Origin: Medicago truncatula
Lineage: Eukaryota; Streptophyta; Magnoliopsida; Fabales; Fabaceae
Assembly: GCF_003473485.1 (NCBI RefSeq)
Contig: NC_053048.1
Span: forward strand, 49,287,755 to 49,351,754
Direction of reading: 5' to 3'
Length of the DNA stretch: 64,000 nt
Below the pieces are notes generated by a model. That model ran no database searches. It was not told where the DNA came from and worked only from the letters and a program-made list of their open reading frames with translations. The stretch's first letter is position 1, and each line of letters opens with the position of its first letter. Below are positions 1 through 39,600 of the stretch, one piece after another. The position numbers and the translations under genes were made by a program.

Positions 1-270
1 AATGTTAAATGTCTTGTGCCGTTAAAGAGGCAACAAAAAAGAAAAACAAGAAGGAATCTACTCCCTAACACCCATACAAAGTAAAGGGTGCCGCCACCGG
101 TCGTTATAACTGAAAGCGGAAGTGGGCATATTAGCTTTTAACCATAAAAAAGACATAAATTTAACACTATCCAATAATTTGCATAAATCCGCAGCTTTCC
201 GCTTGAAAATCTCGCTGTTTCTTTCCTTCCAAACAACCCAAACACAAGCATGCCAGATTACTTTAAGGAA
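1..270 (-). mobile_element. LINE ORF2 C-terminal remnant (zf-RVT tail)
   Basis: On the minus strand one frame across about 150-260 reads ACVWVVWKERNSEIF followed by KAADLCKLLDSVKFM. This is the conserved stretch after the reverse-transcriptase zinc-binding region of plant L1-type LINEs (the WKERN motif). Reading continues toward position 1 with LWLKANMPTFAFSYNDRW before stops appear. The element enters the window from the left and is degraded. No intact ORF, poly(A) or target duplication is visible here. Confidence 0.65.
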
Positions 271-732
271 AGGATGTGTAAATGTTATTAATATCTTTAG
301 TTCACTTTAGTTGAGAGACAATGATCATGAATGATTCCCTCATAAAAATGATGATGAATGATTAAAATAAATTATTTAAATGAGTGAGAATGAATAATTG
401 CCACTCTAGACCCTATTTTGGATAAAATTTGAAATTGGAATCGTAATACTCCCTCCATATGGAAACTAACCCATAATAGACTTCTCACTTAAAATTTGTC
501 CTTGAAGCAAGTTCATTTTTCAATCATTGGAGCAAGTTCTGTAATCTAAGATCTTGCTTCATATGAGTGGTTAAACTAGAACATTTTCAGTGTTTACAAT
601 GATATTTGGTCAATTTCGAGCACATTGGTCTACAATGTTCTTAGTCAAGCTTAATACATAGACAAATTTTCTCGTCTACGCAGTATTATTAATTTTTTTG
701 GTCGCTTCTAGGGCGAGACTCAGTTTACTTTA

Positions 733-1124
733 GGTTTTGTTTGAGAGTTTGGTACAGAGGATAATGAAAAGCTTTGGGGGTGAAAAATATGAGGGAAAAT
801 GATAAATTTTTAACATTTTTTGAAAAAATAATTTTTTAGAGAATGATAAATTAATGCTTATGTTTACTATATTTTTAATTTTAAGAATATTATAACAACA
901 TAGATTAAATTTGAAGCATTCATATAAACCCTAAAAAACCTTCCAAAACCTTCCTCCAATACAATTTTTGAATTCTCCAAATGATAAGAGTTTTGTATTA
1001 TGAAGAAAAATTAACTCCTAAAATCCTCCCCTCCCATTTAACTCTACTTCTTACACTTATTCATTCATTTTTTTTTTTCAAAATTCTCCCCTCCATTCCC
1101 CTCCAAACTTGCAAACAAAGCCTT
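733..1124. mobile_element. MITE-like element with imperfect terminal inverted repeats
   Basis: The left end (GGTTTTGTTTGAGAGTTTGG) is an imperfect inverted match to the right end (CCAAACTTGCAAACAAAGCC). The interior is AT-rich and non-coding. The 'gtttgg...ccaaac' ends resemble hAT-type MITEs seen elsewhere in this window. The target duplication is unclear, so the boundaries are approximate. Confidence 0.45.
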
Positions 1125-1997
1125 AAAAGTGGAATCCAAAAAACTCACATTTTCAATCAACAATCCAATTTTATTTTACTATAAAAAATGAAAACATTTA
1201 CGATTCTCACACACAATTGTGTCCCTACATCTACATCTCCTATCTAAATGAATTCATCAAAATTGAATACACATTTTGGGGTTGATTTCAATGCTGGAAA
1301 TAGACTATTTAAATGAATTTGGTTGGGATTTTCCGATCTTTCGTTGAATACACGTTTTTAGAATTTTCTATGCAATGCTTCTTTAAAAAAAAAATTATCT
1401 ATGATTTCTTTTGAATTAGTTCTTGGGTCTTGGTCCAATATACGTGTTTTCATTTCTCGGCTTGACATTGGTTTAGTCTTTCACATAAAAAAATCCTGCT
1501 CTCCCCATGCATTTTTGGCTCGCGCTCTGCAGCCAATATCAAATGTCTAAATCCGTCCGCTCATGCAGTATCATGTATAAAATTATGAAGATGCTCTCAT
1601 TTTTTTCCAAATAAATATGAGACATGATTCAATCTAAGTATGTAATTTTTATGGCTCTTCAATGAGAGACTTAAGAGCTCTCATGGATGATAAAAATGCA
1701 TGAATCCTTAAAAATCACCATACTTCTTTAGATGTTATTAACACCACTGATGTTATCTCTCCCCTTAACATTCTTGTAAAATTCAGGTGAATTGTGTTTA
1801 TTATCATCTACAAAAGAGATTCTCACATCAGGAGAGGAATTTGTGGGTCTTTGCCAATAGAGTTGACATTTATTAACTTTTGTCATTTTTATAAGAACCT
1901 TTTTAAATATCAAGATGTATCAATTATTACTATTATTTTTTTATGTTACTGAAACACCCTTAATTTAGTAAAAACAAAGTCCCTAATTACCTAATAG
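1125..1997. other. Intergenic, no gene seen
   Basis: AT-rich sequence with no ORF showing protein-like composition. The only longer frame, on the minus strand at 1728-1913, looks random. Nothing further can be supported. Confidence 0.6.
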
Positions 1998-2158
1998 AAT
2001 TAAAAGATAAAGGTGTCCGAGAGCTGAACTCAATTGATCGGAACATTGCATAATTTATACAGGGATCGAGGTTCGAACTTCAAACACCCCAGTTCCCCAC
2101 ATTTAAACGTATGAGTTCAAGTCACTAGGCTACTAGATAAAAAAATTAAAAGATAAAG
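1998..2158 (+). mobile_element. tRNA-derived SINE with 15-bp target-site duplication
   Basis: The body (2013-2143) carries a degenerate Pol III A box around GAACTCAATTGATCGG and a B box GAGGTTCGAACTTC, as in tRNA-derived plant SINEs, and ends in an A-rich run. The same 15 bases, AATTAAAAGATAAAG, occur at 1998-2012 and 2144-2158, which is a perfect target-site duplication. It is not a tRNA gene: the cloverleaf is incomplete and the insertion is flanked as a retroposon. Confidence 0.8.
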
Positions 2159-3200
2159 ACAAAATTTCACCGGAGGTCTTTTGTATTTACTACATTTGAG
2201 TTTTTTTTTTTTTTTTTTAACATTTAGGTCATTTATCTTTTAAAGCGTACGTATAAATTAATCTTTTTTACATTTATTTCTTAATCATTGTAGAATATTT
2301 TTTTTTTTAAAAGTATAAACATTAGCAAATTTAATACATACTTCTTTAAAAATACAAATTTAATACATACTAAAAAAACAAAATTTATATAAAAGTGATT
2401 TCTTAATTTTGTATTTTTCTTAGTGAAGTTCTTAAAAATATCTTTCATGAAACAAGTTGAAAGATCAAATTCGTAAAAAAAAAAGTTGAAAGATCAAAGA
2501 AACAACAAAATTCACTCATTCAATGAATCCATTCCTCTTATTCCGTTTTTGTTAATGAAAATTTTGTTTACTTTTTTTTATCTTCTCTTCTAACTTCTCA
2601 ACCAAGTACTTTGCCGATAATCTTGTTCCCATCACACCACTAGATAGATAGGAACGACCCCACCAACCTCCCACTCTCCAACTTGGTGCCACGCCTTCTC
2701 TCCATAGATGCATCCACTCCAACTCTTTTTTTCATTAGATATTAAAAAAACAAAAATTCATTTATACAAGGGAAAAAAAAGGTCAAATTCTTGAACAAAA
2801 AAAGTCAAATAAATTAAATGTATTTGATGTTAATTTTTAACCAAATACATTAATATTCCCCTAAAAAAACAAATACATTGATATTTGTAAAAAAATTAGA
2901 TGTATCTGGTTTTAATTATTAACCACATACATAAAAAATAAAAAAAATCAATCTATGAATTCTCTCAATTACGTCTATTTTCATTGGGTGATAAATAAGA
3001 AATTACGTTCTAAGCCGCTACGATACGATCTTCACCACCACACCACTGCCGCTGCCGTCACAGCCAGCCTGTCTTTTGTTCTAATCCCATACATTAAATA
3101 ATTTACCATTTTTTAATTAACCAAATCAACACTAATCCTCAAACACAACTGTTCATTCTTATTCTATTAATTAACTAATATTTTCTTTGAAAACGATCAT
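2159..3200. other. AT-rich upstream region of the SAP gene
   Basis: Poly-A/T rich DNA with no coding frame. A GC-richer patch near 3000-3080 and pyrimidine-rich DNA from about 3220 mark the approach to the transcribed region of the downstream zinc-finger gene. Confidence 0.4.
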
Positions 3201-3227
3201 AACAATTTGTCCCCTTTCGCCGTTTCT

Positions 3228-3502
3228 TCCTCTCTCTCTCTTCAATAACCTTTCCGACTCTGTTATCATCATTCTTTCTCTTCCTTTTCCCTCTCCCTTA
3301 TCTCTTCTTTCTCAATTTCCTCAACGACTCTTTCTCTTCATTCAGGTACAATTTCTCTGAATAATAATTCCTGTATTATAATTCGATTATGTTTTAGTAT
3401 TTTGTAAAATTTTAAGATTCATCGTTTCTATTATTCCTTGAATTTCATAGGAATCTAAACGCGTTGTGAAATTGAATATTCTCGTTGTTGAAATTTACGC
3501 AG
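3228..3502 (+). promoter_or_regulatory. 5' UTR exon and leader intron of the SAP gene
   Basis: A CT-rich leader (about 3228-3345) ends in a good donor at TTCAG|GTACAA (exon ends 3345). The matching acceptor is TTTACGCAG|GATAAG (exon resumes at 3503), 43 bases before the ATG. A leader intron just upstream of the start codon is common in plant A20/AN1 genes. The transcription start was not determined. Confidence 0.6.
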
Positions 3503-3545
3503 GATAAGAATCTTTTCATCTGAAACCACAGATCTATCACCATCT

Positions 3546-4052
3546 ATGGCGGAAGAGCACCGATGTGAAACTCCAGAAGGCCACAGACTCTGCGCAAACA
3601 ACTGCGGCTTCTTCGGCAGTTCAGCTACGATGAATCTCTGTTCAAAATGTTACAGAGACATTCATTTGAAGGAGCAAGAACAAGCCAAAACTAAATCAAC
3701 AATCGAAACGGCTCTCTCCTCAGCCTCCGCTTCCACCGCCGTGGTCGTTGCTGCTTCGCCGGTTGCGGAAATCGAATCTCTCCCTCAACCTCAACCACCG
3801 GCGTTGACCGTACCGTCGATCGTGCCAGAAGCATCGGACAATTCATCAGGACCGGTTCAATCGAACCGGTGCGGGACGTGTAGAAAGCGGACCGGGTTAA
3901 CCGGGTTCAAGTGTAGATGTGGAATTACATTTTGTGGGTCCCACAGGTATCCGGAGAAACATGAGTGCGGTTTTGATTTCAAAGCGGTGGGGAGAGAGGA
4001 GATAGCGAAAGCGAATCCTGTGATCAAAGCTGATAAGCTCAGAAGAATTTGA
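3546..4052 (+). CDS. SAP: A20/AN1 zinc-finger stress-associated protein
   Basis: The protein is 168 aa, encoded in one exon. Its N-terminal A20 finger has Cys16, Cys20, Cys32 and Cys35 (C-x3-C-x11-C-x2-C). A low-complexity Ser/Ala/Pro linker follows (about 45-105). The C-terminal AN1 finger has Cys109, Cys112, Cys123, Cys125, Cys130, His133, His139 and Cys141, and the tail ends in KADKLRRI, typical of plant SAPs. Members of this family bind ubiquitin or act as E3-type factors and modulate abiotic-stress responses; that role is inferred from the family. The start is the first ATG after the leader-intron acceptor, and the length matches the usual 160-175 aa. The coding region is clearly GC-richer than its flanks. 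All zinc ligands are present, so the gene looks functional. Confidence 0.95.
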   Translation: MAEEHRCETPEGHRLCANNCGFFGSSATMNLCSKCYRDIHLKEQEQAKTKSTIETALSSASASTAVVVAASPVAEIESLPQPQPPALTVPSIVPEASDNSSGPVQSNRCGTCRKRTGLTGFKCRCGITFCGSHRYPEKHECGFDFKAVGREEIAKANPVIKADKLRRI

Positions 4053-4884
4053 TTTGATCTCAGCCGTTGGATGAATGAGAAGTTGATCTGGACCGTTTGT
4101 TGCGTACCTACTCATACGAATCTTGCATGATGATTCAACGCTAGCTTGATGAAATGAAATGTATAAAATCTTTATCTATTAAAAAAGGTTGAATAAGTCT
4201 TTTTTATTTTTTATTTTACGTGGCTTTTGCTTTGTAGTAAAGGGAAAAAAAAGTGATTTTTCTTATGTTGGATGGAATTGAAGATTTTAAGTCCACGCAA
4301 GCGCGTTTGGAAATTATTATGGTGTGGTCCAAATGTAAAGCGTTGCCGTTTAATTTAATATTCTACTAGTTTATATTGGCAAAATTTATAGTGGGTGGAG
4401 CATTTGGTTTGTGTGAAAATTGAAACAAGTCGTTCTCGTTTCTTTTGTTATCACTAGTGTTTGTCTATAATCCAGATGGTATACTACGATTGAAAGAAGA
4501 GAATAAGTCAAAATAGGCACCTCTAAAATTTAATTTTAATTGAAAAGAAAGCATGCTAAATTCATCGAAACAAAGATATAAAGGACTTAATACAATACTC
4601 TCTTCGATTTTACTTTTTAGATTCATTTTAAGTAATAATGTATATGTATGCGGTCTATAATATGAACTACATACGGAGAAATTATGTCTATATCATTTAA
4701 AATATTCTAGAAGAAACATTTTAAATTATGTCTATATCATTTAAAATATTCTAGAAGAAACATTTTTCACGGCATATTTATTGCTTGATTATACATTATT
4801 GCTTTAAACCAGTTGGGTTTATTTCAATCCCGTTGGTATGCAGAAAAGGGTTAATCTAGAGGGGGTGTTATTTAAGAAGACTTT
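4053..4884. other. Intergenic with a short direct repeat
   Basis: 3' flank of the SAP gene. A direct repeat of about 43 bp (TTATGTCTATATCATTTAAA... with ATTCTAGAAGAAACATTTT) occurs twice back to back, near 4680-4722 and 4725-4768. No gene is seen. Confidence 0.5.
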
Positions 4885-5957
4885 GGGTGTGTTTGGTTGT
4901 CAGAAGAAAGTGTCTAAAGAGAGAAAGATGTGAGAGAAAGTTAGAAAAGAGAGAAGTTGATGAGAAAAAGAGTAGATTTGAGATATTGTTTGGTATAAGA
5001 GAGAAAGAAGAGAAATAGAAGAGAAAGAAGTGTGTTTATTTTTAAAAAGACTAAAATACCCCTATACTAAAAATGTTAATATATGAATTTAATTTTCATA
5101 TAAACATTAATGTAATTTTTTATATTAATTTAATCAAGAATAATTAAACCACATTTTTACATAGAAATTGAGTAAATTATTTACTTAACTAATTATTCAA
5201 GATATTTGAATTTAATCGATTAAATTAATTCTTTTTTGGCTAAATTTCATTTTTCGCCCTCTAAGTTTCAAAATGTTGCGATTTTGGCCTCCTATTAAAA
5301 AAATGGCAAAAGTGACCCCCTATGTTTAGGGAAATATGCTCTTTTGACCTCCTAACATAAGGGAAATATGCTTTTTGACCCCTTATGTTTACAAAAAGTT
5401 GCGATTATGGCCCTTTTTTTGGAACACGTGGCGTCTTCTCAGCAATTTTCGGATGAAGGGGGCCAAAATTGTCATTTTTTTTAATAGGGGGCAAAAATTG
5501 CAACATTTTAAAACATAGGGGGCGAAAAGTGCACTTTAGCCTTCTTTTTACACAGTCATTTAGCTTAAATTAATTCATTGGTTAACTAATCAGTAAATTT
5601 CAATGGTTTAATTTTGTTTTACAAGAGAGATCAAATAAGGAGAAGCATGTAGTTGCTTAGTTTCCTTCTCAACTTTTGTTCTCGACCTGCTACAACAACA
5701 AAAGAAAAAAACTTGAAAACAAAATGATAAATAATACCAGTAGCCACTGTATATATCATTGAAACCAGGGAGAAATGTGGAAAAAAGAAAAAAGTTTATG
5801 TCTCCACTGCATTTCTCCGCACATAAGGAGAGAAGTGAAATAGGCATGGGTCCCACAACATTTTGTCTATCTTCTCAACCAAAAAGATTTCCCATCTCTC
5901 TCCAACTTCTCTCTCCCTTCTTTCTCTCTTTCGTATTTCTCTCCTACCAAACACAGC
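4885..5957. mobile_element. hAT-like MITE with long purine-rich inverted ends
   Basis: The left end reads GGGTGTGTTTGGTTG followed by about 80 bp of GAGAAAG-type purine repeats. The right end is its inverted counterpart: pyrimidine repeats ending in CCTACCAAACACAG. The GTGTTTGGT terminal motif fits hAT-type MITEs. A Mutator-like MITE (5238-5541) is inserted in its interior. Short frames inside it, such as 5759-6067, run across the right inverted repeat and are not genes. Confidence 0.6.
5238..5541. mobile_element. Mutator-like MITE nested in the 4885-5957 element
   Basis: The ends are GGCTAAATTTCATTTTTCGCC and its inverse ...GAAAAGTGCACTTTAGCC. The inverted repeats continue inward through 'ttgcgattttggcc'. 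Flanking 9-mers TTCTTTTTT (left) and TTCTTTTTA (right) match at 8 of 9 bases, as expected for a 9-bp Mutator-type target duplication. A related copy lies at about 37165-37351. Confidence 0.7.
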
Positions 5958-7288: not shown

Positions 7289-9555
7289 TTACAGCTCTTG
7301 ATGAGCAACTTGTTGGTTTGGCGTCTCTGAACATGCTTTCAAGTTGCTTAAGCTCTCTATCCAGATTCCATCAGCTACAATTGCATCCTTGTCGTTGTTG
7401 CGATGCCATGACCAATGTGCATGAGTTTCATTCAGTATTCGTAACCTTCCATGACCGAAGCTTGGCTCTCGAAACAATGAGAGTGGACTTGGAGGATTCT
7501 TAAACCTATGATCAGCAAGCAATATATAATAATATTTCAGGTCCCAGAAGAAATTTACATTGACTAAAAACAAAAAATTATATGTGTGCATAGACCAAAA
7601 ACATATTTAAACCTATATAAAATATACTTCACCTTAGTGCAAGTCCCTCGCGGTTTCCTCCATCCCCAATTGTCACATACATTGGACCGCATGAATCAGC
7701 CTTGTTATTGTAAATTCGAGTCTGCAATGAATTCAAACAGTTAACCGAAAAAAATTATTATCATATCAATTTATCTGTGTCAAAATGATATGAATAAACA
7801 AAACAATAGTAGTGAAAAACATGACATACAAATCGTTCATACGCATGAACATGTCCAGCAAAAACCAAATCAACACGAGCCTTAAAAAGCAACTCTTCCA
7901 TAGCTTGTCTCATGGATTCACCTTCACCTTGATGTGCCTCATTAGTAGTATACCAAGGTGCATGAACCATTGTAATAACCCAAGGTGTCTTCACCCTATC
8001 AATCTTAGTAAGGTCTAATTGAAGCCACTCATATTGTTGTGATTCAACACTAAAATCAGCATATGAACCCAGCATAATAATATGTACCCCAGCAACCTCA
8101 AAAGAGTAATAGAGATTTGAGTTTGAACCACTCTCTTGAAATGGCATTGGCCAACGGGTATTGTAAGCCTCAAAGCCTTTTGGGTATATAATTGGAAAAA
8201 TCTCAATTTCGTGGTTTCCTTCAGTAACCATCCATGGTCTTTTACTAGCATATGGTTCTACTAAACGACCAAAAGAATCCCATAATGGTTGTTGTGAGTC
8301 TGCATATGATAGATCTCCTGGTATCAAGAATACATCGTAGTCGCTTTTGTCGACATGTTTTAGGGTTGATGCAGTCCATTCAGTTTGTCCCAAGTCTCCT
8401 ACATATCAAAATAATATGTACATTGTTAAAAAAAAATCAATTTATTGTATGGTACTACTCCTACTGTTTTAGAGTATGGGACACTTTACGTTCATACGTT
8501 CTTATGAACGTTGATTTTTTTCGTCAACACTTTGAAAATAAAATTCATATAAATTAGTGTGACATACATTGATTTCATCAAATAAAAGAGTAACTGTCAA
8601 ATAGAGTGTTTAATAATGAGTATCGCTAACATTCCTCTCGCAAACAATATCACGTTTACTTTCTCCTCAAAGGTGATTTTATTGGTAAGTTCTGTGACTA
8701 TCTAATGATCTTGTACACTTTACGCACCCTTCAATTATTAAAACCTTATCTTAAGCATTGTCGACCATTGCGTTGGCTTGAAGCAGTCATTGCCTCCAAG
8801 TAACAAACCCAACTAACTAATAAGCTCAATAGGACAATAACATAACTCCAAAACCAATAAACAATAATAGTAATATGAAACCAAAACCAAACCTTGAAGC
8901 AAAAGAAACTTACCAACAATGACAAATTCAATAGGAAACTTAGAGGGTGGTGTCTTGAAGGAAAACTCAGGACCCAAACCTCCACACCTGTAGAAGTAAG
9001 TTGTGTTTGGCTCCAAAGGTCCAATCACAGCATTGTGTATTTTTCCAGAATTGTAGAAAAAATATTGGTACGATGTATGCTCCCCCATTGTTTTTTCACT
9101 ATACTCCCCTGCTTTGGTTCCATACTCAACCATAGTTTCTGTTTCCTTGTCTTCCGTTATCCATGACACTCTCATCTTATCTTTCCCCACCAATGAAATA
9201 TGCACCTACAAGCAAAAAAATGTCACAAACAACGTCACTAATCTTAAAATGACCAATTTAATGTATGATTATAGTCAAATTTGTTTTGAATTTTTTCACT
9301 AAATGAGTTTGTGACTGGTTTATTTAGTGTGACAAAATATATGAATTTATCAATGAGTTAAGGTAACTAAAATTTATAATGAACCTGTTGAGGTTCTGAA
9401 TTGGAGCGTTGATGGGGAGTGATGATGAGCTGACTAGCTGGTTGACGAACAAAATTGTTTTCTTGAGACATTAGAGGTTGTGGGAACAAAAGGAAGCATA
9501 TAGTTTGCAAGAGGATTGGGAACATAACTAGAGACTTTGTGCATTTTGCCATCAA
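7289..9555 (-). CDS. Purple acid phosphatase 1 (PAP20/22-like, secreted)
   Basis: Five exons by splice-site reading: 9385-9555, 8914-9205, 7830-8398, 7633-7721 and 7505-7289. They sum to 1338 nt, giving 445 aa in frame. A hydrophobic signal peptide (about 5-28) is followed by an N-terminal fibronectin-like domain (VHISLVGKDKMRVSW onward). The metallophosphatase domain carries the five family metal motifs: GDLG (about 155-158, split by an intron), GDLSYAD (Asp183, Tyr186), GNHE (Asn216, His217), MVHAPWY and GHVHAYERF. Plant PAPs use a Fe-Zn or Fe-Mn centre to release phosphate from organic esters in the cell wall or rhizosphere. Two adjacent Met codons begin the frame; I chose the first. Paralogue of the gene at 24381-27270. 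Confidence 0.93.
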
Positions 9556-24380: not shown

Positions 24381-27270
24381 ATGAGATTCAAGGGAACACA
24401 TTTTCCAGGCTTGGCTTTCTTGATTTTGGTATGCTTAGGATTTGACGCCGTTTATTGCTACAATCGACCACCGCCTCGTAAAACCATTTTTGTTCCTCAC
24501 GATCATGATGACTCATCGCCACAACAGGTACATTTCTTTTCTGCTTTAAAATCATTAAATGCTTCACGACAAAAAACTGTTCAATCGTATTCATTGTTAT
24601 AAATTTTCTATTAAATCATATCATGTGCTGCCTCTCAAACTTTCATTTACCATATACAATTGTTTGAGGTCGGTGGTTAGGTGGAGAAGACAACAATATG
24701 GATTACCAAATTGAAAACAACATGGAAACCATTGGCAGTTAAGATTGCCAAGTGGGAGAAGTAACTGTTTTTTTTTTTAATTAACATTAAGAAAGCTTTG
24801 CAAAACTTGACCAAAAAAAAATAAAGAAAGCTTTGCAAAAGTTATTACGACAATTTATTGACTAATTAATCGGATCATAGTGACCAGGTATTGTATTATA
24901 TTTGGAAAGGAAACTATTTTTTTTGACCAGATAAATGAAAAAATTGTTGTCTTGACCAAAATAAAGAAAAAATTGTACTTAGAAAGAAAAACTATTTATT
25001 TATTACTTTATATTGTTGTCTTGACCAGAAGAAAAACATATTTACACTAACTTTATTAAAAAAAAACATATTTACACTAGGTAAGAATAAGGTTGAATTC
25101 ATTTAAAAAAACAAGGTTGAATTTTCAATAAGGTTATGTTAATAAGTGCTTTTAGAACATTTGATGAGGAAATCAAGTAATATATTTGCATTGGATTCAA
25201 CAATATTTTAACTTTTAAAAAAATAAAATTTATTATTTTTCACTATTTTTCCAATACAATATTTCTATTTTTCTCCTTTTAATCAATGCAACAATGTCAC
25301 ACTTTAGCATTTCCTTTTTCAATATACATAAATCTTTTCCCTCCTAAATTGAATGAAAAATAAAGACAGTAGTTAAGATCATTCTAATCTAATATTTTAC
25401 AACATGATATATACTATTTCCGGTCACATTTATAAACAACTTTTTCTTTTTCAAATTTATTAAACAATTGGTGTATCTGGATTATAATATTTATTTTGTA
25501 AATCTAAAAGAGTAAAAATTGCTTATAAATGTGACCAAAAAGAGTATATATATATCATGCTCTAGGGAAATGGTTATAAAAACAAAACAAAAATATACTA
25601 ATATGAACCTGATCCCAGAATTACCAAATTCTAAGCAAGTAATTTCTTCAATTTGCTTAGAATAAGGGATATCATACACTCTCATTTGAGTCTGGTTCAG
25701 TTATCGTAGTGTTCATGGTTCTAAAGGATTGTCTTCCTCTTTAATCCTTAAGATAAAGGATTGATAGGCAAACAAATAGAGCATGAGTTTTAAAAAGAAA
25801 TGTAATAATAAGATTGTGTGGGCCTTGTAGGTACATATATCTCAAGTGGGCCAAGACAAGATGAGAATATCTTGGATAACTGAAAGCCCAACTCCAGCAA
25901 CAGTACATTACGGCCCATCTCCTTCAGCAAACGCACTTTCTGCTACTGGAATCACCACTTCTTACCATTATGCTCTTTACGAGTCTGGTGAAATTCACAA
26001 TGTCGTAATTGGTCCCCTCAGACCTAATACAGTCTACTACTACCGTTTGGGTGACTCAGAAAAAACATACAATTTTAAGACTGCACCAGCTCATTTTCCA
26101 ATCATGTTTGGAGTAGTTGGTATGTCCTCTACATCCTCATTAAAGCCACACTATAGTGAAAACTAGTTTTTCATCTCATATGTCTATAATTAAAAATGTG
26201 CAGGAGATCTTGGACAAACAGAGTGGACAGTTTCAACATTGAAGCATTTAGGTGACTCAAATTACGATATGTTATTATTACCAGGAGATTTATCCTACGC
26301 AGATTTTTTACAAAATCTATGGGACTCTTTCGGTCGTTTGGTTGAACCATTAGCAAGCCAACGTCCATGGATGGTCACTACAGGAAACCATGATGTTGAG
26401 AAGATTCCAGTTGTCCACGAAGAGCCATTCACAGCATACAATGCAAGGTGGCAAATGCCATTTGAAGAAAGTGGATCAGATTCTAACCTTTATTATTCTT
26501 TTGATGTGTCTGGTGTTCATGTTATCATGTTGGGTTCTTATACCGATTTTGCACCGGATTCTTCACAATACAAATGGCTTCAAGGGGATTTACAGAAGAT
26601 TAACAGGGGAAAAACTCCTTGGGTAGTGGTGTTGGTTCATGCTCCTTGGTATAATTCTAATCAAGCTCATCAGGGTGAGGCTGAATCTGTTGACATGAAG
26701 ACTGCAATGGAAGGTTTGCTCTATAATGCACTTGTTGATGTCGTTTTTACAGGGCATGTTCATGCATACGAACGCTTTGTAAGTATTTTTATTTTATTTT
26801 ATCATTATTAGTCTAGTTGAAGTGCTGGTTCAATCGGGTTGAAATCACGATGCAGATAACTCACTCACATACTAATTATTCTTTTATTTTCTTAGACACG
26901 GGTTTATAAAGATAAAGGTGACAATTGTGGTCCAGTGCATATTACCATTGGGGATGGAGGCAATCGTGAAGGCCTAGCCACAAGGTAATTAATACTTTTA
27001 TTCTTTTCCTAAACATTACCAAAGGTGGTGTATATAGTAGTAATAAGTCATGATTTTAAATAATTTTATGTGGTATGTGATGATAGGTACCAAGATCCTA
27101 AGCCGGAGATATCAATATTCAGGGAGGCTAGCTTTGGACATGGAGTATTAGAGGTGGTTAATGCATCACATGCACTTTGGAGTTGGCATAAAAATGATAA
27201 TGAGGAACCTGTTGTTAGTGACTCTGTTTGGCTAACAAGCCTTTCCTCTAACCCCGCTTGTAAAGCTTGA
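24381..27270 (+). CDS. Purple acid phosphatase 2 (PAP20/22-like, secreted)
   Basis: Exons 24381-24527, 25831-26119, 26204-26778, 26896-26984 and 27087-27270 sum to 1284 nt (427 aa), all in frame with GT-AG introns. A signal peptide (FPGLAFLILVCLGFDAVYC) precedes a His/Asp-rich stretch and the fibronectin-like domain starting VHISQVGQDKMRISW. The metal motifs are all present: GDLG at the exon 2/3 junction, GDLSYADF, GNHD (Asp replaces the Glu of phosphatase 1), LVHAPWYN and GHVHAYERF. The C-terminal domain is EASFGHGVLEVVNASHALWSWH. Exon number and phases equal those of the gene at 7289-9555, and exon 4 is 89 nt in both, so the two are duplicates. Expected role: secreted phosphomonoesterase in phosphate scavenging (family inference). 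Confidence 0.94.
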
Positions 27271-32360: not shown

Positions 32361-33293
32361 AAGTAAATATTTAGCAACGAAAAATATTTTTTGAACTTTT
32401 AAAAAGTTGAATTAATGTGTGATTTTTAAAGCGAATATTTATAATTGGTTTTTTTTATGTGTCCTTATTTTGCTAAACAAACCTGCCTTATGACATGTGC
32501 ATTAGTCGTGGCCAAGATTTTATGAGGGAGCTAAATATAAAAAAAAAAAATGAAAAATCTTGTCTTCTCAATTTTTGTTGTCGACAAAGATATCTATTTT
32601 TTATTTTTTTGAAAACAAAGATATCTACTTAGTTACTTTAAAGACAGCTAATCTCAAAATAAGAAAAACAAATTTATCTATCATGTGATATTATTTTCAT
32701 TTGTTAACTAGTTACAAACTCGTGTTTTACACGGGTTGAATAACGTATCTTGTAAAAAAATTGTTCTAAACAAAAAATGAACTAATTAAGGAATATTGCA
32801 CAAACATTATAAATATTTATCAAAACATTACCAGGTCTTGATTCTTGAAAAGAGCATATATTTTGTCCATGAGATCAGGAAAACAACATAATAATTAAGA
32901 TTAAACTAATTGGAACCAATGATGTGCAAATTACGATTACATTTGCATGACACAGAATGAACCAAAGAAACATCATTTCTAAGTTAAGATAGTTTTAGAT
33001 TAGAGTTAAGGGTAAGTCCAAAGTATTATCATTCAAGTACCATACATGCTAGAGGATAGAAGTTCATGAAGAACAAAATGAGTAGGAGTCCAGCAGAAAA
33101 ATAAAAGTATCTTTAAATTGACAATGATGAAATGAATACTCATTACCCTGTTCGTAAACTCTTTCTTCAAATAAAGAAAAACAAAAACAAAAATTAAAAC
33201 CCTCAAAACTCTACCCATCATTTCTTCACTTCATATCATATTTTTCTTCTTTCTAATATTCCATTCTTTTTCTTGCTTGAAAATTAGTCTTAA

Positions 33294-34560
33294 TTACTTC
33301 CTAGCTCTCCAAGCTGTTGTTGAAAACAAAGACATATCCTGCCAGCAAGTTACTATACATCCATTTTCTTCTCTCCAGCACAATCTCAAACTCTCCAAGA
33401 GAGTTACATTTGATTTTAGCGTTAAGTCCTGATAATTTACTTCGCTAGGATCTAAATTTTGAACGGGGACAGGACTGGATGTTGTCAGCACAGAATCTAA
33501 AGACCATGCTATTTCCTAAATCCTGAGGTAATTCAAGAAATGAGATATATATCACTAATAATTCAGGTATTCTTATGAAGTTATGACCACCTTAAATATA
33601 AGAATCGCCTCAAAGAAAAATACTCTCTAAGTTTCCAATTACATTGCTTCATGAACTCGGTATAGATTGCTTCGGATCGAAATTTAGCAACAACAGATCT
33701 GGATGTACAGTATCCTTGCATGGAATTAAATGACATATATTAGTGAATATATACTCTTAAACATGTATCGATAAATCTAGCAAATACACTATTAAATTAA
33801 CAAATTTGTTTGACGCATTAAGGCCACATTTTCTTCTTTATTTATATTTCTCAAGGTGAAAAGGTGAGATTAGCTGAAAGGAGATATGACTACTACCTTC
33901 TAGATAAGCCAAGAATTCCAAGCTTGATTTGTAATTTTTCAAGAACTCTGGTCTTCCAGGAGAAAATGCACCTGGTTTTCCCTTCTGAATAGTAAAGAGA
34001 ACCTCTCTAAGGATTGAATTGGCCAAGAAGTCAAAGACATGTAAATCTGAATTTTTCCGCACCAAATACCAAACTTTAGATATGTAAATATAATGGTTTG
34101 ATATGCAAGCATGATATATGTTAGCACAACCACAAGCATGACCATAAATGACCTAGCTAACAGTACATGTATGTGAAAGGTGGTTTAATAAGTTTTAACT
34201 TTTAAAGACCAAAAAGAACTAAGGATTGCCTCAGCAAGTACTGACATGGTCCAAGAAACCAATGCAGTATGACAGATTAAGGCTCATAAGGATCCTAAAC
34301 TTAAAGTGGTAAGTAAAAGTTAGATGAGGTACCAACTGAAGAAATATCCAACAAAAATTTGCAATCTTTATAAATGCGCTTAAAGGGACTTTACCAAATC
34401 CACAGGAATCAAGTATCATAAACCATTTATCAAGTTTTTCATGTATTTCCTTTCTTTCAGCTCATGAACGTAATTTGCTGAATTTTTGCGTTTTTCTGAA
34501 CGTAATGCAAGACTGCAGCCCGACCACTGAATGGAAGATTTTGCAATTCTAGGAAACAAA
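33294..34560 (-). pseudogene. COG2 (conserved oligomeric Golgi subunit 2) captured fragment
   Basis: Pieces in colinear order on the minus strand are: LPFSGRAAVLHYVQKNAKIQQ and, in another frame, VHELKERK (34430-34560); SDLHVFDFLANSIL then KGKPGAFSPGRPEFLKNYKS and SLEFLAYLEG (about 33890-34065); and VQNLDPSEVNYQDLTLKSN then LLESLRLCWREE (33360-33491). These match my recollection of plant COG2, a subunit of the tethering complex for retrograde Golgi traffic. Frames are interrupted by shifts and stops, and much of the protein is missing, so it is non-functional. Confidence 0.7.
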
Positions 34561-34667
34561 AAGAAAATTAAAGTTTCTCACAATTAAATCCATTTAAGCA
34601 TATTTGACATCTTTGTCAAGAAAAGTATAAACCTCACATTCTTCGAACAGATTCGGAAACAATTTAC

Positions 34668-34982
34668 CTTAATCGCACATCCTTCCCCGATAACACTATC
34701 AGTGATATCAACATCAAGCATCTTCGACGGAGGCAAATATTGCGATTGAGTGTAAACTGAAGATGAACGATCATAGAAACTGAAATTAAGATCCATTGAC
34801 ACCATGACCAAGATGCTCTCATAGAGTGCATTGACATGACAATATGATGATTATATGGAAGATAGCCTATTTATTTACCTGAAGTCAAGTACATGCTTTT
34901 TGGCGATTCCGAAATTCACATTATAGAATGCCTCAATGGTATCAATGTCTTCCCGGTAGCCATCATATAAGTAAGCTTATAC
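34668..34982 (-). pseudogene. ADP-glucose pyrophosphorylase small-subunit fragment (two exons)
   Basis: Exon 34879-34982 (acceptor ATAG|GTATAA, donor TTCAG|GTAAAT) encodes AYLYDGYREDIDTIEAFYN then VNFGIAKKHVLDF. Exon 34668-34779 (acceptor TTTCAG, donor AAG|GTAAAT) encodes FYDRSSSVYTQSQYLPPSKM then LDVDITDSVIGEGCAIK. Joined across the intron, the frame is preserved (DF-S-FYD). This is the start of the beta-helix region of the starch-synthesis enzyme's small subunit. A TAA stop stands where Gln is expected just before AYLYDGY, and no other parts of the gene are nearby. It is a captured genomic fragment, because the intron is retained. Confidence 0.8.
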
Positions 34983-35006
34983 CTATGAATTTTTCACAAA
35001 ATTACC

Positions 35007-35201
35007 TTAGATCTTGATATTTAAGCTATGAAAGTTCCAAAGCAAGATTATACAGGTCAATCCAATATGATGCACATATTTATCAAACTCAGATTCTCCA
35101 CCACAATCCATATATTGTTTCAATCCAATTTTTTCAAACTCACATTCTTTACCACAATCCATATATTGTTTCAATCTAATGAATTTAGTGGCACACATCA
35201 T
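35007..35201 (-). repeat. Tandem duplication of about 51 bp inside the Helitron
   Basis: The motif CCACAATCCATATATTGTTTC occurs at 35101 and again near 35152, each followed by AATC(C/T)AAT. The duplicated reading on the minus strand gives LKQYMDCG twice. It is probably a local slippage duplication, not a gene. Confidence 0.55.
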
Positions 35202-35510
35202 ATTTATTGCTTTAAGTCTCTAAAACTGCAACATGGTAGCTTAAAAATCTTAACATACATCATCCTAAGGATTAACAAATGAAGATATTTGACAGATAAA
35301 AATGCAACAAATGATGCTTGTTAATAGACTTGAAACTTACCAAATACAACAATATTAGAAAGCTAAGCTAAGACCATGATGAAATTCAATGCACACAAAG
35401 AACAAAATTGATGCACATGCCAAAAACAATATATTAATTTAAAGAAGATTAAAGAAATCCAAAATAGAGAATTTAAAGAAGAAGCTCAACTTACCCAATC
35501 TAGAAGATAT

Positions 35511-36900
35511 ATAAAATTCTCCTCTTTTGTGCTATTTCCCTTTCCATCATCACCTGCTCATTTGTTTGCTCTTCCTGCAAACACAAAATATGAAATTACT
35601 TATCAAAGCAAAACAAACTTTGAGGTGGAATAAGTTATGATATCACATCGTATAATCATTTTAAGTTATGTTACAATATTATCTACACAAAAATCCATAA
35701 CATTGAAATCTACCACCAATAAGGAGGAAAGGAAATAAAAATCGATAAATAGTTTCAATTCAGCCCCGAGTTGAAGGGAGAAATCATCAACAAACATATT
35801 AAGATTTCACATCACATGAACTTAATATTCTCTATCCTAAACTGCCAAGCCAAGACAAAATATTCCCTATAATTTCTTTTTTATAAGTAAGCTCTAATAT
35901 TTTAGTTTGAATGCAGAATTTTGAATAGGCAAATAGAGAAATTGGTTCTTTCATACGAAGTAATTATATTCGAGACATTGGACAGTAAATATGAACAATT
36001 TCTTAGTCGATATTCGAAATTTAGTTTGCCATGTTGGATTTTGGCTACATTTCATAAGTGTATTCAAATACTTATGCTAATAACATAATACTACCAGAAC
36101 TGTTTACGTCACACATAAATTGAGCCTAAACAAACTTTCATAGATACCCTCTTAATCATCAATCCTTTACTCTGAACAATATGTCAATTGGAGCATCTTT
36201 AGTAGATACCTAAGGCTGAGTTAGATACTTAATTATAAGCCTGAAACTAAGAGTTTTCACGCTATAATAAATAGTATAGATGTAAGAGTACTCACAGAAA
36301 ATGAAAGAAAGTAAAAGGAATACAAAAAATGAAAGATAGTAAAATGAATACAGAAAATGAAAGAAAGTAAAAGGAAAAGAATGAAGGAAGCATAAAGTAT
36401 AATAGTGATGATGATGAATTGAACTAACTGTTGGGATGATTTGGTACGGAAAGTCTGTACGCCGAGAGAAAGACACGCAATCCATTTGTCCTTGAATTGC
36501 ATCTCCGTGTAGAGGAGGGCGAAGAGAGCGATTCCGGTGAAGTTGGCAGCAGAGAGTAGTTTGTTAGTACTACCTTTCAGAACGGAGTATATCTTACAAA
36601 AAATCCAGATAAATAAAACAAAATCAAGAGCCTTGTTTTATCTCTTCTCAATCCCTTGCATAATGGTGTTAGAGAATTGAATTAACAACTTAAATAAAAG
36701 GATTCATTGAAGAATTTAACAGGACTTGGAGACAATTTCAAAGCCTAAATATAAAACACACATTTGTAACCCAAAAAGAACATGAGTTGTAAAAGTAAAT
36801 CCATGAGGCATTCGATCAAACATGTAAAATAAGAAATAATTGAAGATGGAAAAATTACCCAAAAGCTGATGAATCCAAACAACATCTTGAACAGGGGAAA
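35511..36900 (-). pseudogene. Unidentified captured exons within the Helitron
   Basis: Three exon-like pieces lie on the minus strand. One near 36840-36900 reads MQRYVISPVQDVVWIHQLLG and then a GTAATT donor. One at 36437-36589, after a TTTTTGTAAG acceptor, reads IYSVLKGSTNKLLSAANFTG then IALFALLYTEMQFKDKWIAC and LSLGVQTFRTKSSQQ, with a hydrophobic segment. One at about 35511-35576, between AG and GTAAGT, reads EEQTNEQVMMEREIAQKRRI. I do not recognise the protein. The donor after SSQQ is TT rather than GT, which would break splicing. It could be a third captured gene or a decayed resident gene. Confidence 0.4.
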
Positions 36901-37164
36901 TAACATATCTTTGCATTTCTCCAACTCATAAAAAAGGATTGAAAATAGACATTATAACCTTAAGCCAAAAAGAAAAAAACATTCTTCAAAAAGGATTACA
37001 GAGACAAAACAAATCAATAGACACAAAATCACCAAACAACAAACAAAAAAACTTCAATATTGGAAATTCACTTCTAATTTATTTCATGAATCAATCCCCC
37101 TTTTTTGAAAATTAAACTTTGAATCCTTACAATGAGTCTAATACAGAGAAACAACATTAATAAT

Positions 37165-37351
37165 ATAAGGGAAATATGATCTTTTGACCCCTTATCTTCT
37201 CAAAAACTTGCGATCATGACCCCTTTTTGGGACACGTGGTGTCTTCTCAGCAATTTTGAGACAAAAGGGGCCAAAATTGTCATTTTTTTAAATAGAGGAC
37301 CAAAATCGCAACTTTTTGAAACTTAGGGGTCGAGAAGTGCAGTTTAGCCTA
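37165..37351. mobile_element. Partial Mutator-like MITE, same family as 5238-5541
   Basis: Shares 'gacacgtggtgtcttctcagcaattttg', 'gccaaaattgtcattttttt' and the right end '...agtgcagtttagcc' with the 5238-5541 element. The left end is shortened. It lies inside the Helitron, so it either inserted after capture or travelled with it. Confidence 0.65.
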
Positions 37352-38657
37352 AATTTTAATGATTCAATTGCAAAATTCAAAGAGATTAATGCAAAATTAG
37401 GACAAATATAACTGTACCTTCAACTAAACACTACCAGAAGGAAAGGACATCACATAATTCTTACCTACCAACTACCTAATTCATTGCCAAAAACAATATT
37501 TATAGAAAATTGAAACAAAACCATCCATATCAATTTACAAAATTCTCCATTTTTTTTTATCAAAAATAAAAATAAAAATCATCTAGATGAAGCTTACAAT
37601 GTTCCACATCGGTTCTATCACAAAATCAGACATGAAGAGAGAGAATTTCACAATAAAACTTTAAAAACTAACAATGCATTCATTTGGGGGAACGAATCAC
37701 TAAAACAAACCTTAAAATCAAACCCAAAACCAAAAAGACAATGCAATTGATCTTACAACAAAAATAAAGACATAAAACATGCAGTAACATGCTTTCAACT
37801 TGAATCATGCGAGTTTTGTTGAGTTACGTCATCATTTTTCTTTGAAACAAAAGAATGAAATAATATGAAAAAACATAAACAAATATTAATCTTTTTGCAT
37901 ATTTGGCTTATTAACATATAAAACAAATTGTGAGGTGAAGTAATAGAGACAAATTTTATAGTATCAAAATTAAAATACAGTAAAAAAGAAATTAAATTCT
38001 TTAAGCCTACAAATTTCACTAAGAAGCAATAAGATACATCATGAGAGAAAAAAGGTAGGAAGATGAATAAAATAAATTTTGAAATTTGAAATCGAATTTG
38101 AAAGTGAAAAAGAAGAGAAATGGAGGGAATAATACCTTGAACTTTGACATATGAATCCTGACAACTATCTGGTACATATGTATGCGAAGTGAATTTAGTT
38201 ATTTTAGTGTTCATATACTCTATTTTCTCAATATTTTCTCTTTAACTGTCTATTTCAATTACTAACATTCTTTACAGAGGTTATTTTTTATCAACTTCAA
38301 AATAGATATATACATTCCTTCAAAAAAATTAGATGTATACAAAAACATGTTAAAGTTATGAAAGTATTAAATGAGATCACAAAGGACCTATGTGGAGCTT
38401 GAGCATGAAGGTTTGATGAAGTTTGACATGGTTAAGGTGGTGAGGGTGAGGGTTGAATTTTTGGTGTAGGAGGAGAAATGGAGAACGAAGGAGAAAGAAT
38501 TGGGCTTGGCCCATTAAAAAAAATCTTGAGTGAATTTATTTTTATGAGGTGGCACTCACCTAAGTCTAAAAATTATAGAATTATTAAATTACCCCCCATG
38601 AGGGCAAAAATGTAAAAACATGAGATATTTCTTTTAATGTATAGTAAAGTAAAGTAG
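37352..38657. other. 5' part of the Helitron, non-coding
   Basis: No recognisable gene. The minus-strand frame 37795-38214 is Phe/Ile-rich and looks random. Near the 5' end 'gccacctcataaaaataaattc' (minus strand) resembles subterminal Helitron sequence. Confidence 0.4.
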
Positions 38658-38847
38658 ACTAATCTTTTAAAATACTTATTTGAGGTAGCTGATTATTAAA
38701 ATACTTTTGTTTAGCAATGACAAAACTAATTCATTTCATGAAAGATTAACTGGTACAAATGAGATGGTACGTCGTAAAAAATATGGGGGTTTCATGAAAC
38801 TCTAGCTATGTTATAAGATACCTTATTTGTTTGCCTCCTCACATAGC

Positions 38848-39600
38848 TCAAAATAAAATTATTGTGAGATGACAATAGATCCATACATCTAGAAATAACA
38901 TCTCCGAACTCATTATGTGGAGTAGAGTTGGAGTTAATGTATCAGCAAGTAACCTACAGTCATATTTAAATATAACAGATGTCATTTGACGATTAATAAC
39001 AACGTTTATAGCCTCAAATAAGCCTAACACTTCAGCTTCTGAAGGAGTAGAAATGAAATAGGAATACTTCGAGAAGTCTAACAACAACGCTCCGGAGGAG
39101 TCTCTAAAGCATATGCCAAGACCCGTAATAGTGTTGTTATTAAAGAGTGCGCAATCCAAATTACATTTCACCATGGGAGACGAATGTTTTTCCCAAAAAG
39201 TTTGTTGGTGTGTACCCTGACTCGGTTGCGTTGTTTTTTGCATACACATCCATTTATGGAGAGAATTTTTAGCACGTTGCACAATAGACCTGGAAGATGT
39301 GTCTGAACCGAGACCCGTTTAATGAAATCTAAGAGAAAACTAGTAAAGTCGTTAGCGGTATATAGTAAATTACAAACAATGTTGTCTAACTCAATTAATT
39401 CTCAACACTTCATGACTTTTGGGCACACGAAAAAAGTGTGAATATGTGTTTCAACAAGCTGTTCACAATGCACACAGGTATCGTTAATTAGGAGACCATT
39501 CTTTAACAAACGGGAACGCGTAGGAAGACAACTGCGAGCCATATCCGATAACATAGACCGGATTCTAGGAGGGATTTGTTGTGAATGTGTACTTAAATTT
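38848..39600 (-). mobile_element. LINE ORF2 relic (zf-RVT plus RNase H)
   Basis: On the minus strand 39570-39283 reads MARSCLPTRSRLLKNGLLI then CVHCEQLVETHIHTFFVCP, the zinc-binding region, with a stop soon after. The frame at 39282-38848 then reads MVKCNLDCALFNNNTITGLG, ICFRDSSGALLLDFSKY and STPSEAEVLGLFEAI, an RNase H domain. It is broken by stops and has no visible poly(A). Confidence 0.75.

Follow-up and report, generated by a model that had tools for sequence, protein, structure and literature searches.

A non-autonomous Helitron of Medicago truncatula carrying sense-oriented pieces of at least four unrelated genes

Gene-capturing Helitrons of maize are described as gaining gene pieces stepwise, with capture alternating with copying and internal loss (PMC3288121, in the part of that text available). 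The capture of several genes was treated in a 2008 comparison, as far as its accessible text goes, as a feature of maize Helitrons that may be uncommon in other plants (PMC2575219). Here we describe a Helitron of Medicago truncatula, located in a stretch of 64,000 bp (C7:49287755-49351754, hereafter the window), which holds pieces of at least four unrelated genes: AGPase small subunit, COG2, GRAS and phosphatidylserine-decarboxylase-like (PSD-like). It is a well-supported gene-capturing Helitron of an ordinary but rich kind and a clear new example, and it is notable because multi-gene capture has been reported as uncommon outside maize (PMC2575219, available text). In the literature searched, we found no prior report of this element or of multi-gene capture by a Medicago Helitron, and absence there is not absence from print. 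Genome searches were run against the 429.9-Mb assembly of 42 contigs. Element coordinates (el) run from 1 to 5951 along the element's own direction, so that a window position equals 38659 minus el, and other loci are named by their position in Mb.

The element lies on the minus strand of the window, where it begins with TCTACTTTACTTTAC at 38658 and closes with ...ACCCGTGTAAAACACGAGTTTGTAACTAG at 32708; the next base, 32707, is T. It is a non-autonomous Helitron with the following extent and termini.

32708..38658, minus strand: non-autonomous Helitron with captured gene pieces, running for 5951 bp from its 5' end at 38658 to its 3' end at 32708, ends common to seven loci
38629..38658, minus strand: 5' terminus (TCTACTTTACTTTACTATAC...), with G on its 5' side, compared with A in five of the seven copies that have both ends
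32708..32740, minus strand: 3' terminus, an imperfect hairpin (32717-32737) and CTAG, then T

A genome search with the whole stretch gave at least 70 matches (the best 40 of 1514 candidates were scored). The best matches were fetched and aligned, and we identified seven loci, including the window, that carry a 5' end and a 3' end of the same type as the others.

Window: 5951 bp
C5:2.38 Mb: 8491 bp
C3:25.93: 4751 bp
C6:40.74: 4302 bp
C1:38.14: 3736 bp, to the outer of two 5' ends
C2:1.70: 2638 bp
C1:27.71: 2635 bp

The Helitron ends TC...CTAG are present in the window; TC is found in six of the seven copies (TT in C6:40.74) and CTAG also in six (TTAG in C1:38.14). All seven copies have T directly after the 3' end; directly before the 5' end, five have A, the window G and C6:40.74 T. 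Within the stretches fetched, a single end was found at four further loci, the 5' end at C6:19.83 and C3:33.96 and the 3' end at C5:39.24 and C7:30.03. At up to three mismatches, a pattern of 34 positions for the 3' end matched the genome 395 times and one of 27 positions for the 5' end nine times, with no match for either reversed control. Two of the nine 5' matches lie in one copy (C1:38.14), and those at C3:8.51 and C6:16.45 Mb were left out of the follow-up; the window, C5:2.38 and C3:25.93 escape the 5' pattern because their 5' ends diverge more. With 395 matches to the 3' end and nine to the 5' end, the copies therefore form a small 5'-end subfamily within a large 3'-end family. The pair of termini is not a chance pairing, since it recurs at seven loci and the reversed controls for both end patterns and for an internal join described below all gave zero matches. 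In the unshared parts of the six sisters no confident gene was recognised by eye on the translated frames, and no Pfam search of these parts was made.

Two of these loci have unusual ends. At C1:38142891-38143033, two subfamily 5' ends stand about 116 bp apart within one copy, comparable to the multiple termini seen in maize. At about C6:19828919-19828974 (in the fetched stretch C6:19828700-19829950), a family 3' end with hairpin and CTAG abuts a 5' end that is without its first few bases; this head-to-tail junction could be a tandem rolling-circle product or an element inserted at the end of another.

A sequence-only reading of the window had placed Helitron termini, with a 3' hairpin and CTAG/T, at 32708..38658 and had proposed a search for sisters sharing both ends. 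The termini are confirmed by the seven loci, and the 3' boundary is backed by sister copies with the identical last base. The exact 5' boundary given in that reading stood in part: the sisters place it at about A|TCTACTTACTATCTATTAAAARAAATG, where the window has a small insertion and some substitutions, and the boundary in the window is reliable to within a few bases. Its flanking base, 38659, is G on the 5' side of the element, as had been claimed.

The manner of insertion was resolved with the sister C3:25928213-25932963, which carries AGPase, GRAS and COG2 pieces (el 3000-5951) and was inserted within a repeat. Its joined 110-bp flanks gave 40 matches at 92-98% identity (best 40 of 809), all of them running across the insertion point and the shortest covering query positions 19-220. 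Four of these empty sites were fetched and aligned; they read ...AAAATAA|TGT... at the join, with no duplication and no loss, showing that this sister entered between A and T without target duplication. All of the best 40 matches belong to this sister, so that the joined-flank query was uninformative on the four other sisters included in it; the flanks of C6:40.74 were left out. Immediately next to the window element, the flanks show no direct repeat 2-12 bp long. The two window ends show no inverted repeats, being alike at seven of 30 positions, and their longest exact inverted match is 7 bp and out of register. In the 5' flank of the element we also observed, by eye, an RNase H-like frame (window 38848-39318, minus strand), which partly overlaps a many-copy repeat.

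Between these ends lie the following pieces, with identities given at the DNA level to the locus named.

37361..37667 (el 992-1298), minus strand: probable 5' region of a Mei2-like (RRM) gene, 92% to C3:48.489 Mb, sense
37160..37358, minus strand: short interspersed repeat resembling a miniature inverted-repeat transposable element (MITE-like), at least 10 further loci with matches of about 190-215 bp at 86-92%
36435..36566 (el 2093-2224), minus strand: PSD-like exon piece of 132 bp, 90% to C2:1352751-1352882, sense
35510..35784 (el 2875-3149), minus strand: a 3' splice site followed by the beginning of an exon, 94% to C7:38.058 Mb, where a RhoGAP frame lies close by
34505..35060 (el 3599-4154), minus strand: AGPase small subunit piece, 88% to C5:43.657 Mb, sense
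34464..34504, minus strand: filler between the AGPase and GRAS pieces, about 41 bp, with TTACGTTCA twice, read by eye from the alignments
34378..34463 (el 4196-4281), minus strand: GRAS piece 1, from the upstream portion of the sequence coding for the C-terminal end, 93% to C5:2.099 Mb, sense
33367..34380 (el 4279-5292), minus strand: COG2 piece, 85-86% in two blocks over about 1 kb to C4:50.78 Mb, sense
33030..33375 (el 5284-5629), minus strand: GRAS piece 2, last codons, stop and 3' sequence, 91% to C5:2.099 Mb, sense

The AGPase piece takes in two exons along with introns and the beginning of a third exon, and phmmer matched it to solved small subunits of AGPase (E 8.2e-17). The COG2 piece is without about 135 bp from the middle of the C4:50.78 gene, whose first frame matches Pfam COG2_N (E 4.1e-28); a PDB search with the COG2 frame gave no match. 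At the GRAS source, we found an open frame of 489 codons (Pfam GRAS, E 2e-122). The genes from which the AGPase, GRAS and COG2 pieces came stand elsewhere in the genome with their domains, and the source loci are on several chromosomes. Beyond the PSD-like source, two PS_Dcarbxylase (PF02666) matches follow 5-6 kb further along the same strand, and we infer a single gene comprising both the exon and the domain. The C3:48.489 stretch is upstream of same-strand frames, one with an RRM domain, and would belong to this downstream gene, which we take to be Mei2-like. As that stretch lies upstream of the recognised frames, the piece is only probable and the count is kept at no fewer than four genes. 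The source of the RhoGAP-side piece is uncertain, because the C7:38.058 locus has a family-type 3' end (three mismatches) about 4.2 kb downstream. Most of the further loci of the MITE-like repeat have an inverted partial partner nearby.

All six pieces, four of them clear, the Mei2-like one probable and the RhoGAP-side one uncertain, are in sense relative to the element. The capture template was DNA, since the AGPase and COG2 pieces align with their sources through introns and the GRAS piece through the stop into 3' sequence. The sequence-only reading had reported AGPase small subunit and COG2 fragments together with unidentified exons, all in the orientation of the element and with introns retained, in the pattern of gene-capturing maize Helitrons. 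These claims held, with multi-gene pieces found between sister-shared ends, and the unidentified exons proved to include the GRAS piece, the PSD-like exon and probably the Mei2-like 5' region. The essence of that reading was right; what has to be added is the larger number of source genes, the position of COG2 inside a GRAS exon and a weakened hairpin in the window copy.

Pfam matches on the element's own frames (LbH_GLGC, GRAS and COG2_C) were below the curated cut-offs and served as leads until sequence comparison bore them out; one to CD34_antigen, also below its cut-off, was dropped as chance. Two candidate sources were rejected. At C6:14.6 Mb, the frames read by eye showed no continuing PSD-like gene and the exon is only part of an 84% match; at C4:64.71 Mb (91%), only an AGPase fragment was seen by eye, with no family end pattern in the 9.5 kb fetched. 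This separate AGPase exon fragment at C4:64.706 Mb (5287-5734 of the fetched stretch) lies upstream of FAD-monooxygenase-like and AP2-like frames recognised by eye, and the locus is possibly another carrier of gene fragments. A second COG2 copy at C3:51.857-51.866 Mb has an internal repeat, reflected by two overlapping matches to one part of the element, and is perhaps a pseudogene.

The joins between pieces bear on the order of events. The COG2 piece is nested within the captured GRAS exon, from which about 62 bp are absent. At the COG2-to-GRAS join, the two sources overlap by nine identical bases, GAGAGAAGA; a simple base-composition model puts the chance of an overlap of at least nine at about one in 10,000. 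This join, the one between gene pieces that was searched genome-wide, gave eight matches at up to three mismatches, all at family loci, and none for the reversed control. Its carriers are the seven both-end copies and C4:17.9, a locus whose likeness to the element ends just before the hairpin. In C5:2.38, el 3283 is joined directly to el 5116 with a 4-bp overlap, and this copy has neither the AGPase piece nor GRAS piece 1, while most of COG2 is missing too. We read this join as an internal deletion. The family thus seems to have gone through capture, copying and internal loss by turns, as reported for maize in the available text of PMC3288121.

With regard to the transposition enzymes, the Rep domain PF14214 gave 126 genome matches (best 150 of 154 candidates scored). 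None of these 126 lies in the window, and no PF14214 match was found in the 10 of 102 window frames searched. The element is filed as non-autonomous, and RepHel is therefore not required of it; relatives with Rep exist. The Rep domain at C7:13.222 Mb is followed by a helicase-like frame (by eye) and, on its own strand some 7 kb downstream, by a perfect family 3' end at 13229433.

Taken together, we found termini shared among sisters, an A|T insertion of a sister, sense pieces with introns and a nested capture whose join is shared. On this basis, we consider it very likely that the window holds a non-autonomous Helitron that moved replicatively, depended on RepHel from autonomous relatives sharing its 3' end and captured gene pieces stepwise from genomic DNA. 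Transposition would have proceeded by rolling-circle replication, with RepHel supplied in trans by such relatives, and the gene pieces would have been gathered in several steps. Capture may have occurred by break repair with template switching, to which a 9-bp microhomology at one join and a single filler stretch point.

Several observations weigh against this account. The 3' hairpin of the window folds at -4.6 kcal/mol (z -1.8), with 15 of 200 shuffles equally stable, and that of C5:2.38 is weaker still (-3.4 kcal/mol, z -0.9). The third sequence folded, from C3:25.93, reached -10.2 kcal/mol (z -4.9), so that the hairpin expected of a Helitron some 10 nt from its 3' end is present in the C3:25.93 type and weak in the window copy. 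On its 5' side the window element is flanked by G rather than A. The empty A/T site that had been proposed for search was obtained for the C3:25.93 sister but not for the window insertion, where no match spanned the joined flanks (best 40 of 59 scored); the left flank matched itself alone among these candidates, and the right flank is repetitive only from about 46 bp outwards. At C7:13.222, likeness to the window element covers no more than the final 63 bp, with 50 positions alike, and the 19.8 kb fetched around this locus contain no 5' end of the window type at up to six mismatches. Since the likeness is short and a 5' end of the window type is lacking, this locus is only a candidate helper. 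Lastly, the 9-bp microhomology concerns one join, the other COG2-GRAS join having an unremarkable overlap of about 2 bp.

Other explanations were weighed against the same observations. Plant Pack-TYPE elements likewise capture and shuffle coding DNA (PMC8903248, as far as its text is available), which would suit a Pack-MULE or another terminal-inverted-repeat transposon carrying gene pieces. However, the ends here are TC and hairpin-CTAG without inverted repeats, no duplication abuts the element, and the empty site of C3:25.93 reveals a clean A|T insertion, making such a transposon exceedingly improbable. A gene cluster that has decayed with age, or segmental duplications mimicking an element, would fit pieces that are 85-94% identical to their sources and altered in their coding parts. 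Yet the mosaic joins recur between the same ends on different chromosomes, the source loci are themselves on several chromosomes and the sister flanks show no likeness past the ends (by eye), so that we give this explanation almost no weight.

Capture could also have come about by read-through past the 3' end in place of break repair inside the element. Such read-through was shown experimentally for the reconstructed bat Helitron Helraiser (PMC4778049, available text). Read-through is expected to add DNA at the element end, whereas here COG2 sits inside a GRAS exon from which about 62 bp are gone, with the family 3' end further downstream. We regard read-through as an unlikely general route, though it may account for other pieces. 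The joining of COG2 to GRAS also created a fused reading frame.

33294..33515, minus strand: in-frame COG2-GRAS fused reading frame, 73 aa, ending at the GRAS stop

A new coding unit, expressed and under selection, would agree with a frame that is fused in phase, uses the native GRAS stop and is open in three of eight copies (the window, C6:40.74 and C4:17.9). In the other five it is broken by a stop, frameshifts or deletion, and with only three of eight copies open, selection is not evident. Four coding stretches of the window differ from their sources by 24 non-synonymous and 12 synonymous codon changes (exon edges approximate), a non-synonymous share of 67% against about 78% expected without constraint. 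We therefore judge a selected coding unit very unlikely; the fused exon is probably not functional, and these frames give no sign of a working new gene. A bolder proposal, that a Helitron lineage outside maize assembles mosaics stepwise by placing new pieces inside captured exons through microhomology, and that at least one of the eight copies transcribes and splices the in-frame COG2-GRAS exon, strikes us as improbable.

To place the Helitron in time, we compared el 5144-5629 among copies. The Kimura two-parameter distance (K2P) between the window and the six both-end sisters was 0.074-0.092, and that to C4:17.9 was 0.079 (longer of two aligned parts). C1:27.71 and C2:1.70 differ at K2P 0.006 (0.6% over about 485 bp), and because they differ by so little, the subfamily moved fairly recently. 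Taking a rate of about 1e-8 substitutions per site and year, the window lineage would be roughly 4 million years old and the youngest pair roughly 0.3 million years, both being rough estimates. With its weakened 3' hairpin and a G at the 5' flank, the window copy is probably dead, that is, probably unable to move now. Elsewhere in the window, purple-acid-phosphatase-like frames were recognised by eye at 7761-8405 (minus strand) and 26194-26811 (plus strand), in opposite orientation and about 18 kb apart.

A legume family with at least four source genes in one element, shared joins and sisters in several states offers a natural series for following stepwise capture join by join, and lets internal capture by break repair be weighed against read-through at the end. 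Its value lies in a host outside maize and in a nested capture with traceable sisters. Compared with bat Helraiser and HelibatN (PMC4778049, in the accessible text), the 3' hairpin with CTAG and the mobilisation of host gene pieces are alike, but the capture shown there is by 3'-end read-through and here an internal insertion is observed. As in rice and Arabidopsis Helitrons (PMC2575219, available part), one captured set was spread to several copies by transposition; those elements have few captured genes and reported mean lengths of 441 and 950 bp, whereas the window element has more source genes in one element and 5951 bp. The maize HelA type (PMC3288121, as far as its text is available) shares with the window family the CTAG 3' end, several gene fragments per element, sisters with differing sets of pieces, internal loss and multiple 5' ends in one copy (here C1:38.14). 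The present family differs from that type in its host, Medicago, and in having one piece nested in the exon of another, the comparison being one of structure.

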